The translations under genes were made by a program, and so were the position numbers. Of a stretch of DNA of 45,465 nt, positions 3,564 to 37,781 are shown one piece after another (position 1 is the stretch's first letter; each line of letters starts with the position of its first letter). This DNA is from Candidatus Effluviviaceae Genus V sp. (GTDB taxonomy: Bacteria > Joyebacterota > Joyebacteria > Joyebacterales > Joyebacteraceae). A model generated the notes under the pieces. It was not told the origin of the DNA. It made no database searches and saw nothing but the letters and a program-made list of their open reading frames with translations. The stretch lies in assembly GCA_014728125.1 (NCBI GenBank), contig WJMD01000004.1, positions 1 to 45,465 of the forward strand, written 5' to 3'.

Positions 3564-4157
3564 TCAATCCTGCTTCTTCCCGACCAGCCTCTCGTAGTTG
3601 CCGCGCGACTCCCTCTCGATCTCGTCGTGCAGCGACCGGCCGTGCGCGTCCATCGTCACGATGGCCGGGAAATCCTCGACCCTGATGACCCACATGGCCT
3701 CGGGCGCCCCGAACTCATCGAGCTTGTGAACATCCGTCACCTCGACGACCGACTGCGCCAGGATCGTCGCCAATCCACCGATGGCCGTAAGATAGACGCA
3801 TCCGAACTTCTCGCACGCTTCCTGCGTCCTCTCGCCCATGCCGCCCTTCCCGATGACGCCGCGCACATTGTACTTCTCGATGACGTCGGCCTCGTAGGGT
3901 TCGTCGCGGATGCTGGTCGTCGGTCCGGCGGCCACGAACTCCCACCTCCCCTCGTCGTTCTGCTTCACGACGGGGCCGCAGTGGTAGATCATGCTGTTCT
4001 CGAGGATCTCCTTCACCTCGGGACCGTCCGTATCGACCAGGTACTTGTGCGCCGCATCCCGGGCAGTGATCATCACGCCCGTGATCGACACCTCGTCCCC
4101 GGCCTTGAGCGTGCGGATGTCCTCCTCGGAGACCGGGAGCGTGATCTTAGTCGCCAT
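3564..4157 (-). CDS. fumB: fumarate hydratase class I, beta subunit
   Basis: A 197-residue protein matching the C-terminal (beta) half of Fe-S class I fumarase / L(+)-tartrate dehydratase. Family landmarks are the start MATKITLPVSEEDIRTLKAGD, then ISGVMITARD-like ITGVMITARDAAHK, the glycine-rich VIGKGGMG and the late ALWVIRVEDFP-like MWVIRVEDFPAIV. It completes the active site for the reversible hydration of fumarate to malate together with the alpha subunit. Its ATG lies inside the last codons of the alpha gene (11-base overlap) behind GAGGAGG, so the two are translationally coupled. Length is normal for the split form. A tartrate dehydratase role cannot be excluded from sequence, but fumarase is more likely without a tartrate context. 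Confidence 0.9.
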   Translation of the reverse strand: MATKITLPVSEEDIRTLKAGDEVSITGVMITARDAAHKYLVDTDGPEVKEILENSMIYHCGPVVKQNDEGRWEFVAAGPTTSIRDEPYEADVIEKYNVRGVIGKGGMGERTQEACEKFGCVYLTAIGGLATILAQSVVEVTDVHKLDEFGAPEAMWVIRVEDFPAIVTMDAHGRSLHDEIERESRGNYERLVGKKQD

Positions 4158-5025
4158 AGGTGACCTCCTCCCCCGAGATGGTCATCGCGGCCTTGCGATA
4201 GGCCCAGCACACATAGCTGACGGAGACGAAGTAGCATGCCGGCGCCCTGTGCAGCTTGCAGGTCTTGACCCCGAGCACCGTCGTCTTGCCGCCCAGTCCC
4301 ATCGGACCGACGCCGAGTTCGTTGAGTTCCTTCGTGAGCTGCTCCTCGAGTTCGGCCAGCTGCGGATCCGGGTTCGTGTCGTCGAGATCCCTCAGGAACT
4401 GCTTCTTGGACCAGCAGAACGAGGTGCAGCGGTCGCCGCCGATGCAGACGCCGATGGCGCCCGGTGCGCACCCCTTGCCCTGTGCGTTGTACACGGCGTC
4501 GATGACGCAGCGCCTGACGCCCTCCATGTCGCGTCCGGCTCCCAGCGAGCCGTCCGGCAGCTTGTACTGGGCGCCGACGTTCTCGGAACCGCCGCCCTTC
4601 AGGAGGAGCCTCACACGCATCCCTGCCTCGTCCCTATGTGTGAACTCGATGTGAGGAGCCTCGATGCCGACGTTGGTGCCGGAGTTCTTGCCGGTGACGG
4701 GATCGACGGCGTTCGGTCTGAGATAGTAGAGTTCCGTCGCCTGCTTTGCCGCCTCGCGGGCGGCCTCCTCGATCTCGCACGCCGTGAAATCGGGGCCGTA
4801 CTCGATGAAGAAGAGGAGCGAGCCGGTATCCTGACAGATCGGCGTCGAGTTTTCGCTCGCCTTCTTCGCGTTCTCGAGCATCAGCCTGAGCGTCGCGGCG
4901 CCCGATGTCCCCTCGCCCTCGGCCTCGGCGGCCTTCTCCATGGCGCGCTGCACGTCGGGCGGAAGCGTCGTCGACGCCCGCCTGATCAGCTCGAGGAAAT
5001 GCTCGGTCAGCTTCGCCTTGTCCAT
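4147..5025 (-). CDS. fumA: fumarate hydratase class I, alpha subunit
   Basis: A 292-residue Fe-S hydro-lyase alpha subunit. The three cysteines expected to ligate the catalytic [4Fe-4S] cluster are visible: Cys64 in PICQDTG, Cys186 in KGCAPGAIGV and Cys273 in VSYVCWAYRK. SGTNVG and the glycine-rich GGGSENVG are also present. It catalyses fumarate/malate interconversion in the TCA cycle (oxidative or reductive) and, by family knowledge, is oxygen-sensitive, which suits an anaerobic or microaerobic cell with a hydrogenase. It is the first gene of a two-gene operon with its own promoter and leader hairpin. SD GGAGGGAGG precedes the ATG at 5025. Confidence 0.92.
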   Translation of the reverse strand: MDKAKLTEHFLELIRRASTTLPPDVQRAMEKAAEAEGEGTSGAATLRLMLENAKKASENSTPICQDTGSLLFFIEYGPDFTACEIEEAAREAAKQATELYYLRPNAVDPVTGKNSGTNVGIEAPHIEFTHRDEAGMRVRLLLKGGGSENVGAQYKLPDGSLGAGRDMEGVRRCVIDAVYNAQGKGCAPGAIGVCIGGDRCTSFCWSKKQFLRDLDDTNPDPQLAELEEQLTKELNELGVGPMGLGGKTTVLGVKTCKLHRAPACYFVSVSYVCWAYRKAAMTISGEEVTYGD

Positions 5026-33754: not shown

Positions 33755-35863
33755 CTACCCCTTGTACTGAAGCTCGTAGAGCCTGTAGTAGTAACCGCGC
33801 TCGGCCAGCAGCTCCTGGTGGGTCCCCTCCTCGCAGATCCTCCCGTTGTGCATCACGAGAATCCGGTCGGCGTGCTGGATGGTCGACAGCCGGTGTGCGA
33901 TGACGATCGACGTCCGGTCCTCGAGGAGACGGACCAGCGCGTCCTGGATCAGACGCTCCGTCTCGGTGTCGATGTTCGACGTCGCCTCGTCGAGGATGAG
34001 CACGAGCGGGTCGAATGCCAGGGCGCGGGCGAACGCCAGAAGCTGTCGCTGTCCCGTCGAGAGCGTCGACCCTCTCTCTCTGACCTCCTCATCGTACCCG
34101 CCGGGCAGTCGCTCGATGAAATGGTCGGCGTGGACGTGACAGGCGATCCTCTCGAGGTCATCGTCGCCGACGTCGTCGTTCCCCAGACGGATGTTCCCCT
34201 TGATGTCGCCCGCGAAAATGAAGACGTCCTGCATGACGAGACCGAGTCTAGACCTCAGAAGGTCCTTCGGCATGTCGCGGATGTCGACCCCGTCGACGAG
34301 GATCCTGCCCGACCTCACATCGTAGAACCGTTCGAGCAGGCTGATGATCGAGGTCTTCCCGGCCCCGGTCGCTCCTACGATCGCCACGGTCTCGCCGGGC
34401 TCGACCTTGAACGAGACGTGCTTCAGGACGTACTCGTCGTCGACGTACGCGAAGCAGACGTCGTCGAACTCGATCCGTCCCTCCGCGTGCTCGGGAATGA
34501 CCGGGTCCTCCGGCTCGGGGATCATGTCGTCGTTGTCGAGCAGCATGAAGATGCGCTCCGAGGAGGCCATCGCCTGCTGCATCGTGCTGTACCGCTCGGT
34601 CAGGTTCCTGATGGGCCTGAAGAACATCTGAACGTACGACAGGAACGCCACGAGCGTACCCAACGAGAGCGTCGTGCGGAGCACCTGCCCGCCGCCGTAC
34701 CAGATGACGAGACCGATGGCGATCGCGCTCGCGAGCTCCATCAGGGGCATGAACATCGCGAAGACGCGGATCTGCCGCATCGCGGCGAGGAAGTTGTCGT
34801 GGTTGATCTTCCGGAAACGCCGCATGCTCTCGTCCTCGCGGCGGAATATCTGGGTGATCCGCATCCCGCTGATGCTCTCCTGCAGCGTCGCGTTGATGAT
34901 CGCGACGCGCATCCTGACCTCCCTGAACGCGTCCCTGATCTTCACGCTGAAGACGACCGTCGCCCACGCCATGAACGGCAGGACGGCGAAGCTGACGAGC
35001 GCCAGCCTCCAGTTCAGTCTGAGCATGAGGACGATCACGCCGATCAGGATGAAGACGTCTCGCAACAGCATGATGACGATCGAGGTGAACATCTCGTGCA
35101 GCACCTCGATGTCGTTCGTTGCGCGCGTCACGAGTCGACCGACCGGGTTCTTGTCGAAGAAAGAGAGCGAGAGGCGCTGCAGGTGGGACAGGATCTGCAT
35201 GCGGATGTCGTACATCACCCGCTGCGACGTGAGTTCCATCATGTTGATCTGGAAGAGCCGCACGACGAACGAGCCCAGGAGGATCCCGATGATGATGAGG
35301 GCGATGCGCCCGACGCCGTCGAAGTCCTCGGCTCGGACGGCCCGCAGGTCCTCCTCCGAAAGCTGCGAGAGCATGTCGGTCGGGATCCCGACGACCCCCT
35401 CGCCCGGCACGTATCCCTCCCGCATGAGCTCGCGACGCTCGATGACATCGCGTTCAGCGAGGTAGTAGTCGCGCTCGCCGATGAGTCCGGCCTCGCGGAC
35501 GCGCGCGACCTCTCTCGGATCGTAGCCGGAGAGCGTCTTCGAGCGGACGAACCAGGCCTCACCGACGCCCGCGTCCGCATCGACCGGAACGAGATCGCTC
35601 CGGTGCTTCTCGATGAAGGGACTCGCGACGTCCGGGGGAGCGTCCGCCGGCGTGAGGAGGCGGGACGTAGCGACGATGTAGTCATCGATCGCGAGGCGGG
35701 TGAGATACGGCAGAGCGAGCTCGGCTCCAGCGACGACGACCAGGATGACGACCGATACGACGATCAGCCGAAGGTACGGCCTTGCGTACGTCACGAGCCG
35801 CCGGACCAGCCTCTGGTCGTACGCCTTGCCGAGGATCTCCTCGTCGTGGTAGTCGTACGCCAT
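33755..35863 (-). CDS. ABC exporter half-transporter, canonical-Walker-B partner
   Basis: A 702-residue membrane-ATPase fusion of the MDR/MsbA type. TM1 is about 30-60; an extra segment of about 120 hydrophilic residues (64-183) sits between TM1 and TM2 on the extracytoplasmic side; TM2-TM6 follow. The nucleotide-binding domain has Walker A GATGAGKTS (497-505), signature LSTGQ (601-605, one change from LSGGQ) and Walker B LVLILDE with catalytic Glu626. With the 601-residue partner encoded two bases upstream it forms a heterodimer: this subunit donates the catalytic Glu, the partner the canonical signature. Export of a lipid, peptide or drug is likely; the substrate is unknown. Confidence 0.9.
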   Translation of the reverse strand: MAYDYHDEEILGKAYDQRLVRRLVTYARPYLRLIVVSVVILVVVAGAELALPYLTRLAIDDYIVATSRLLTPADAPPDVASPFIEKHRSDLVPVDADAGVGEAWFVRSKTLSGYDPREVARVREAGLIGERDYYLAERDVIERRELMREGYVPGEGVVGIPTDMLSQLSEEDLRAVRAEDFDGVGRIALIIIGILLGSFVVRLFQINMMELTSQRVMYDIRMQILSHLQRLSLSFFDKNPVGRLVTRATNDIEVLHEMFTSIVIMLLRDVFILIGVIVLMLRLNWRLALVSFAVLPFMAWATVVFSVKIRDAFREVRMRVAIINATLQESISGMRITQIFRREDESMRRFRKINHDNFLAAMRQIRVFAMFMPLMELASAIAIGLVIWYGGGQVLRTTLSLGTLVAFLSYVQMFFRPIRNLTERYSTMQQAMASSERIFMLLDNDDMIPEPEDPVIPEHAEGRIEFDDVCFAYVDDEYVLKHVSFKVEPGETVAIVGATGAGKTSIISLLERFYDVRSGRILVDGVDIRDMPKDLLRSRLGLVMQDVFIFAGDIKGNIRLGNDDVGDDDLERIACHVHADHFIERLPGGYDEEVRERGSTLSTGQRQLLAFARALAFDPLVLILDEATSNIDTETERLIQDALVRLLEDRTSIVIAHRLSTIQHADRILVMHNGRICEEGTHQELLAERGYYYRLYELQYKG

Positions 35864-35865
35864 GC

Positions 35866-37671
35866 CTAGACCCCTGGATCCTCTCGGTCCATCTCCGCCT
35901 CGAGCAGCTGCCGTTCGTAGATGTCCGCGTAGAGACCGCCCATCTCCGTAAGCTCCTCGTGTGTCCCGCGCTCCACGATGCGCCCGTCATCAAGGACGAT
36001 GATCTCGCCGGCGTGCTTGATGGACGAGATGCGGTGCGAGACGATGATGCTCGTCCGGGTGCGGAGCGCGGAGGTGAGAGCCTGCTGGATCCTCTCCTCC
36101 GTCGCCGTGTCGACCGACGAGAGCGCGTCGTCGAGAGCGACGATCGCCGGGTCCACGATGAGCGCCCGGGCGATCGCCACCCGCTGCTTCTGTCCGCCGG
36201 AGAGTGTCACGCCGCGCTCGCCGAGCTTCGTCTCGAACCCCTCCGGGAACTCCTCGATCTCGTCGAGGACCCCGGCGATCCGGGCGGCCTCACGCACCTC
36301 CTCCTCGCTCGCCGAGGGTCTCCCGAACCGGATGTTCTCGCGGATCGTGTCCGAGAAGAGGAACGTGTCCTGCGGGACGTAGCCGACCGCGCCGCGGAGT
36401 GAGGAGAGTCTGAGCTTCCTGACGTCGTGCCCGTCGACGAGTACGACACCCTCCTGCGCCTCGTAGATACGAAGCAGCAGGTTCATGATGGTACTCTTTC
36501 CTGAACCGGTGCGTCCGAGGATGCCGAGGGTCTCCCCCGCCTGCACCCTGAAGGATACATCGGCGAGCGCCGGCTCGAGCTCCTCCTCGTAGCGGAATGT
36601 GACCTCGCGGAACTCGACGTCGCCGCGGATCTCGCCGGGGTCGTACGCGTCCGGTGCGTCCTCGATCTCCGGATCGCTCTTGAGGATCCGGTTGATCCTC
36701 CCCATCGAGGCCGCGCCGCGCTGCATGATGTTGACGACCCATCCCATCGCCATCATCGGCCACGTGAGGATCGCGAGGTAGCTCGTGAAGGCGACGAGGT
36801 CGCCCGCCGAGATCGTTCCCATCATCACCTGGCGGCCGCCGAAGTAGATGATGATGACGACGCTCATCGAGGAGAGGGTCATGATGAACGGGAAGAAGGC
36901 GCCCCAGACGCGGACCAGGCGGATATTCTTTCTGATGACCTCCCGGCCCGCCTCGGCCAGCCGGCCGAGTTCGTAATCCTCCCGGACGTAGGCCTTGACG
37001 ACCCGGACGCCGGAGATGCTCTCGCGGACACGCTCGGTCAGCTCCGAGAAGGTCTCCTGCACCCGCTCGAAACGTCTGTGGAGCATCTTGCCCGCCCGGA
37101 GCGTGAAGAGCGCGATGAGTGGCATCGGGATGAGCGCGAGCCCGGTCAGCCGGACGTTCAGCGCCAGCATGAAGCCGATGGCGGCGACGCCGAGGATCAT
37201 GGCGTCCACGAGGGCGACGACGCCGAAGCCGCACGCCATTCGCACCGCGTTCAGGTCGTTCGTGGCATGGGCCATGAGGTCGCCCGTCTTGTGCTCCGAG
37301 TAGTATCGTGCGGAGAGGCTCTGGAGATGTGAGTAGATCTCGTTCCTCAGGTCCTCCTCGATGTGGCGGGAGGTCCCGATGATCAGATAGCGCCACGCGA
37401 AGCGGAAGACGGCGATGCCGGCCGCCAGCCCCGCGACCAGCAACGCGTAGTGGAAGAGACGCTGCTGGTCACCCGTGCCCGCCGTGAGATCGTCGACGGC
37501 AAGCTTGATGATCCGCGGGATGACGAGCTGCATGGCGTCGACGAGGAGCAGGGCGAGCACGCCCCACACGACGGCCCGCCGGTACCGGGAGAACCGGGCG
37601 AAGATGCTCCGCAGACTCCCGCCTGAGGAGTTCCTGAGTCCGTCGTCATTCGTACTGGCCACGCTGGTCAT
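35866..37671 (-). CDS. ABC exporter half-transporter, degenerate-site partner
   Basis: A 601-residue half-exporter with six TM helices (about 38-320) and an ATPase domain. Walker A is GRTGSGKST, the signature a canonical LSGGQ (490-494), but Walker B reads IVALDD, with Asp515 where a catalytic Glu is expected. This pattern is the one known from heterodimeric exporters such as TM287/288 and LmrCD, where one ATP site is degenerate. I use ATG 37671; a GTG at 37692 lies inside a hairpin, and a GTG at 37662 with GGGGA eight bases upstream is an alternative. The gene is first in a two-gene operon behind an unusual structured leader. Confidence 0.9.
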   Translation of the reverse strand: MTSVASTNDDGLRNSSGGSLRSIFARFSRYRRAVVWGVLALLLVDAMQLVIPRIIKLAVDDLTAGTGDQQRLFHYALLVAGLAAGIAVFRFAWRYLIIGTSRHIEEDLRNEIYSHLQSLSARYYSEHKTGDLMAHATNDLNAVRMACGFGVVALVDAMILGVAAIGFMLALNVRLTGLALIPMPLIALFTLRAGKMLHRRFERVQETFSELTERVRESISGVRVVKAYVREDYELGRLAEAGREVIRKNIRLVRVWGAFFPFIMTLSSMSVVIIIYFGGRQVMMGTISAGDLVAFTSYLAILTWPMMAMGWVVNIMQRGAASMGRINRILKSDPEIEDAPDAYDPGEIRGDVEFREVTFRYEEELEPALADVSFRVQAGETLGILGRTGSGKSTIMNLLLRIYEAQEGVVLVDGHDVRKLRLSSLRGAVGYVPQDTFLFSDTIRENIRFGRPSASEEEVREAARIAGVLDEIEEFPEGFETKLGERGVTLSGGQKQRVAIARALIVDPAIVALDDALSSVDTATEERIQQALTSALRTRTSIIVSHRISSIKHAGEIIVLDDGRIVERGTHEELTEMGGLYADIYERQLLEAEMDREDPGV

Positions 37672-37745
37672 CCCCAAAAAGAGGCCCCGCACGGGGTGCG
37701 GAGCTCGTGAGGCGTCGCGACCGCCGGTCGCGTCTCAGGTGAGAC
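37672..37745 (-). promoter_or_regulatory. structured leader of the ABC exporter operon: three hairpins plus U-run
   Basis: Reading the minus strand from the predicted transcription start: GTCTC-ACCT-GAGAC (37745-37732), CGCGACC-GGC-GGTCGCG (37732-37716), then CCGCAC-CCC-GTGCGG (37701-37687), followed by CCTC and TTTTT (37680-37676), then GGGG and the ATG. The last hairpin with its U-run looks like an intrinsic terminator ending five bases before the start codon. This suggests transcription attenuation or a processed leader. Confidence 0.65.
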
Positions 37746-37751
37746 CTCGCC

Positions 37752-37781
37752 AGTCTATGCCATACGGACGGACCCTGTCAA
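37752..37781 (-). promoter_or_regulatory. promoter of the ABC exporter operon
   Basis: On the minus strand: perfect TTGACA (37776-37781), 18-base spacer, TAGACT (37752-37757). Transcription would start near 37745, at the first hairpin of the leader. Confidence 0.72.

Follow-up and report, generated by a model that had tools for sequence, protein, structure and literature searches.

The DNA window analyzed here (45,465 nt, the whole of contig C4, WJMD01000004.1, from a genome that is 97.6% complete and spans 2.52 Mb over 190 contigs) carries, between a promoter and an ABC exporter gene, a leader predicted to fold into three hairpins. This locus raises the question of whether the leader controls the exporter and, if so, by which kind of element. 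The first exporter half (35866-37671, minus strand; longest frame 35866-37692) displays the Pfam domains ABC_membrane and ABC_tran, and the top-scoring bacterial chain among the best 60 PDB sequences listed is YheI from Bacillus subtilis, which we take to be BmrC. The Pfam search also identified a second ABC exporter half downstream (33755-35863, minus strand), its likely partner; in relatives, too, the exporter ortholog has a second ABC match, a weaker one, next to it. Judged from sequence similarity, the gene encodes the first half of an ABC exporter pair of the BmrC/BmrD type. The closest named records of its protein come from Candidatus Eisenbacteria or bacterial MAGs. A family search and a phylum search led to the same 20 genomes, of which 18 (that of the window included) carry an exporter ortholog, 68-75% identical to the window protein. 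The 17 of these that have upstream DNA, window included, constitute our ortholog set and represent eight genera; G017, which begins inside the gene, and G014 and G015, which have no ortholog at that level, were left out.

All the elements listed by the initial annotation (promoter, three hairpins, UUUUU and GGGG-ATG) were found, and all lie on the minus strand. A simple scan identified a sigma-70-type promoter (37752-37781), with TTGACA at 37781-37776, a spacer of 18 nt and TAGACT at 37757-37752. A near-consensus promoter, TTGAC(A/G)/TAG(A/C)(A/C)T, occupies the corresponding place in 14 of the 17 orthologs, and the three g3 species show weak candidates only. The predicted transcript would start near hairpin 1 (GUCUC-ACCU-GAGAC, 37732-37745), which is followed by hairpin 2 (GCGACC-GGC-GGUCGC, 37717-37731); both are also palindromes at the DNA level. 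Hairpin 3 and its U-tract (37676-37706) resemble an intrinsic terminator, with a core stem GCUCCGCAC-CCC-GUGCGGGGC at 37704-37684 and UUUUU at 37680-37676. The fold of the 74-nt leader (-36.9 kcal/mol, z = -2.92) was equaled by one of 200 shuffles, and in a longer fold that includes coding sequence, the three hairpins do not persist as separate structures. Over 6 kb, the promoter of the window is one of three promoter-like sites (0.5 expected) and its terminator one of three terminator-like sites (1.3 expected). As in intrinsic leader terminators of 5′ UTRs in general, a GC-rich hairpin and a U-tract stand between promoter and start. The element is of an ordinary, already known kind, in a lineage that is unstudied.

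Terminators were scored with a formula after d'Aubenton-Carafa, combined with our own hairpin limits. Under a first, stricter rule, which places the tail directly after the stem, three of the 17 leaders pass and the window fails (-16.1). A gap of 0-2 nt was allowed after this result was seen; the window then scores 5.0, and the relaxed rule was used in all the controls. With this rule, 10 of the 17 leaders score above zero between promoter and start (G000, i.e. the window, G007, G011, G009, G013, G003, G006, G018, G016 and G019), and these belong to five of the eight genera (g1, g4, g5, g7 and g8). Only 0.05 of 17 would be expected from shuffled leaders, and when the window leader was shuffled 100 times, its score was never reached. 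The seven leaders that do not exceed zero are those of G010, G004, G001, G005, G002, G008 and G012; in G001, the hairpin is strong but the tail behind it, CUCUGUUG, is weaker. Conservation, on which the initial annotation had made its proposal depend, is thus observed for hairpin 3, whose sequence is nevertheless rewritten among the orthologs. Its broader idea that all three hairpins matter is supported for this hairpin only, since hairpins 1 and 2 have no sequence counterpart in the leaders of relatives and no regulon. A search for the same leader elsewhere, which it had also proposed, retrieved a single place in the own genome, the window itself, and DNA similarity searches in 61 genomes gave, besides the window, only short matches at chance level.

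Background rates were estimated in five genomes of the family (about 1.6 Mb). Terminators were found in nine of 324 leaders of divergent genes, one of the nine being the G003 exporter, and at 21 of 178 convergent gene ends; the tails of these gene-end terminators are no longer than the tails in the exporter leaders. It should be emphasized that the gene caller was crude: the window exporter leader is not among the hits and the window leader of a fumarase-like gene was counted as a gene end. Strong promoter-like sites followed by a terminator within 130 nt amount to six of 98, two of the six being the window and G003 exporter leaders; the statistical test used four of 96, and removal of all four exporter sites gives four of 94. 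Outside the phylum, three of 61 homologues have a terminator within 220 nt of the start, but at 109-163 nt from it, so that it may belong to an upstream gene; these 61 come from 66 loci, L076, L098, L101 and L119 having been dropped for short upstream DNA and L124 for an odd match range. When the strongest hairpin is picked blind to its tail, the next 8 nt include on average 3.75 T in 16 exporter leaders, against 1.66 in 94 controls. At the genus level, five of eight genera at a rate of 9/324 give P = 9e-7, genera being treated as independent; none of the P-values takes relatedness into account.

Within g4 and within g7 the stem is nearly fixed, and it is rewritten between genera. In the four alike stems of g1, g2 and g5, seven of nine pairs are invariant, an eighth varies in one of its two bases and the ninth exchanges C-G for G-C; pairing is kept in all 36 cells. 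The covariation that the initial annotation had suggested to look for is weak taken alone and no proof by itself, because 88 of 500 shuffles reach the same score. In G019, a loop contains the 5′ half of the stem seen in g5, and another stem forms around it, again with GUUUUG behind it. The C-G/G-C exchange and this rearranged but retained hairpin both speak for an attenuator. On the protein tree, several inner branches of which are open, three changes suffice to explain the terminator label, whereas each of 500 shuffles required more, a result favored by near relatives. The distribution would fit an old feature, with losses or weakening in g3/g6, in part of g5 and in G001. Sequence and comparison thus show a promoter, a hairpin of terminator grade between it and the start, and the recurrence of this hairpin across most of the phylum with stems that change in sequence.

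We consider it fairly probable that this leader is an intrinsic transcription attenuator whose read-through is set mainly by the strength of the hairpin and U-tract rather than by a built-in sensor. RNA polymerase would initiate at the strong promoter and make a leader of about 70 nt; part of the polymerases would stop at the GC-rich hairpin and U-tract, and those reading through would transcribe the exporter pair. The hairpin probably limits the amount of pump made, because relatives keep it while its sequence changes. We infer that termination occurs in the cell, with a strength and a read-through set mainly by hairpin and U-tract, which would act as a throttle. Against an attenuator, seven of the 17 orthologs fail the score, and in G004 a leader hairpin is missing altogether. 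Furthermore, the leader of a fumarase-like gene of the same window has a hairpin that is conserved in relatives but scores above zero in only two of 20 cases; since it mostly scores below zero, a hairpin in a leader of this lineage is not necessarily a terminator. In G004 (L037), the promoter runs almost straight into the Shine-Dalgarno (SD) sequence and ATG. The hairpin present in its g5 relatives is thus missing while promoter, SD and start are kept, and G004 offers a natural comparison, although an assembly error is a possible cause of this absence.

Among the nearest known systems is bmrBCD of B. subtilis, which is controlled by ribosome-mediated transcription attenuation via the leader peptide BmrB (PMC4191407): the leader terminator cuts expression about 5-fold, lincomycin relieves it in part and induction requires bmrB translation. 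Both loci have a related BmrC/BmrD-like pair downstream and an intrinsic terminator between promoter and exporter genes. However, the bmrBCD terminator is located within a small ORF that is translated and has alternative stem-loops, whereas in the window leader neither a start codon ahead of hairpin 3 nor a competing fold was found. The terminator is common to both, and the visible sensor parts of the Bacillus system are absent from the window. Likewise, compared with intrinsic leader terminators in general, the window leader shows no recognizable sensor or input of a known kind. Searches on Eisenbacteria riboswitches, BmrCD/bmrB attenuation and leader attenuation of multidrug efflux found no published description of it. 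The interest of the locus would lie in a conserved leader attenuator in a little-studied lineage, placed before an exporter whose Bacillus relative is controlled by attenuation through a translated leader; if the sensorless throttle is true, the same regulatory step would have been kept without the leader peptide.

A less likely extension of this reading is that, in this uncultured phylum, the BmrCD-like exporter is governed by an attenuator conserved in its shape only: selection would act on terminator strength and let the stem sequence change. As no sensor would be encoded in the RNA, either a hard-wired throttle or a global factor that acts on RNA polymerase would provide the control, replacing the leader peptide of Bacillus. 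A regulated attenuator, in which a ligand, a protein or a stalled ribosome blocks hairpin 3 when the exporter is needed, as with BmrB, seems to us rather unlikely. The resemblance of the exporter to BmrC, whose Bacillus operon is so controlled (PMC4191407), speaks for it, as do the stretches before the hairpin, which are alike within g5 and within g4; however, these stretches are not common to different genera. In the 11 leaders compared, the terminator fold is better than a refold without terminator by 17-25 kcal/mol (17 in the window), and no competing antiterminator fold, shared start codon or leader ORF was found; the window has no ATG, GTG or TTG before hairpin 3. The whole window gave no Rfam match at gathering score. 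The 97.6% complete genome contains one match to the NusG-family profile PF02357, and no second, specialized protein of this family (LoaP/RfaH-like) was found in it. The ANTAR profile PF03861 has no match in the genome, although the control genomes gave none either. ANTAR-controlled attenuators have two hairpins with 6-nt loops, and the loops here are of 4 and 3 nt. The proposal of the initial annotation that read-through depends on a ligand, an antiterminator or a protein thus gained nothing from the search for alternative folds, shared leader peptides, Rfam matches or an extra NusG, and a dedicated switch in the leader is not supported. Since no sensor part was found, the leaky terminator is the best-supported mechanism, and any conditional control would come from outside the leader RNA. 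Such a signal may act in trans or via translation, but no trace of one was found.

Alternatively, the hairpin could protect the mRNA and the U-rich stretch could aid ribosome landing, with little termination. We regard such a 5′-UTR stabilizer or translation element as unlikely. The nearest Rfam family is RF02401 (ClpQY promoter), an element that stabilizes hslVU mRNA, and the hairpin and U-rich tail of the window match the first 28 of its 57 positions. However, the score is 21.4 bits for a cut-off of 42, the rest of the model is unmatched and the gene is different; our search of the literature on this element found no paper on the element itself. The fumarase-like gene, whose conserved hairpin and U-rich leader lie beside its SD, also speaks for a stabilizer, but the tails of the exporter leaders look more like those of terminators (UUUUU, UUUUG), those of g4 and g5 are at least 40 nt from the start codon, and such leaders are rare in the background.

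It is very doubtful that a repressor uses the first two palindromes as its DNA operators just past the promoter, the hairpins being incidental. GTCTCA-N2-TGAGAC and CGCGACC-N3-GGTCGCG are indeed perfect inverted repeats directly after the -10 box, but neither was found in the leaders of relatives, and hairpin 3 would be left unexplained. Patterns allowing one mismatch occur at five places in the genome for each palindrome (about 5.5 being expected by estimate for the first one), and the places outside the window are mostly inside long open frames. As genome pattern searches found no regulon for either palindrome, the operator reading was rejected. Finally, an accidental hairpin and T-run in a GC-rich leader is barely credible: stable hairpins arise easily in GC-rich genomes and seven of 17 orthologs fail the score, but no shuffle of the window leader reaches it, the terminator recurs in five of eight genera, and shuffles and statistical tests already make chance unlikely.

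The start codon of the exporter is uncertain. The start region (37660-37675, minus strand) includes GGGG (37675-37672), ATG (37671-37669) and an in-frame GTG (37662-37660). Since GGGG lies 9 nt before this GTG, it could serve as its SD sequence and translation may start there; the claim that a normal SD is lacking is therefore unsafe. Ortholog starts fall near residue 24 of the longest frame of the window, and the two g8 orthologs have a short N-terminal extension similar to that of the window. In the predicted fold, CCUCA before the terminator pairs with UGGGG after the U-tract, so that GGGG would be hidden; likewise, GUGGCA pairs with UGCCAC across the U-tract in some g4 leaders, an arrangement that is not seen in all genera.

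Other leaders and hairpins were observed in passing. The fumarase-like gene of the window (4147-5025), which from reading by eye we take to be a class I fumarase, is preceded (5116-5023, minus strand) by a promoter TTGACA/TAGAAT and a leader hairpin GCCCGAC-GUUCC-GUCGGGC before its SD. The hairpin, then UCUUUACGUA or UUUCUACGUA and the SD are found in 13 of 20 ortholog leaders, a conserved 5′-UTR element of its own. The motif (hairpin and UUUCUACGUA-like tail) occurs at 19 places in 1.6 Mb, none of them with a promoter, and therefore is no general leader element in this sample. G002 (g3) has two fumarase-like copies, L237 (G002:C47) and L252 (G002:C11), one of which resembles g5 copies, leader included; this suggests a gene transfer or a binning error. 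A secreted-protein-like gene of the window is likewise preceded (3272-3126, minus strand) by a promoter TTGTGA/TATAAT and a hairpin CCCCCGUUCGACGGGGG, then GAUUUGCCUUU and an SD. Lastly, after the fumarase-like genes (about 3497-3452, minus strand), a long hairpin GGGCCGCAUCA...UGAUGCGGCCC is followed by UUUGU only, an example of the short U-tails of this lineage.
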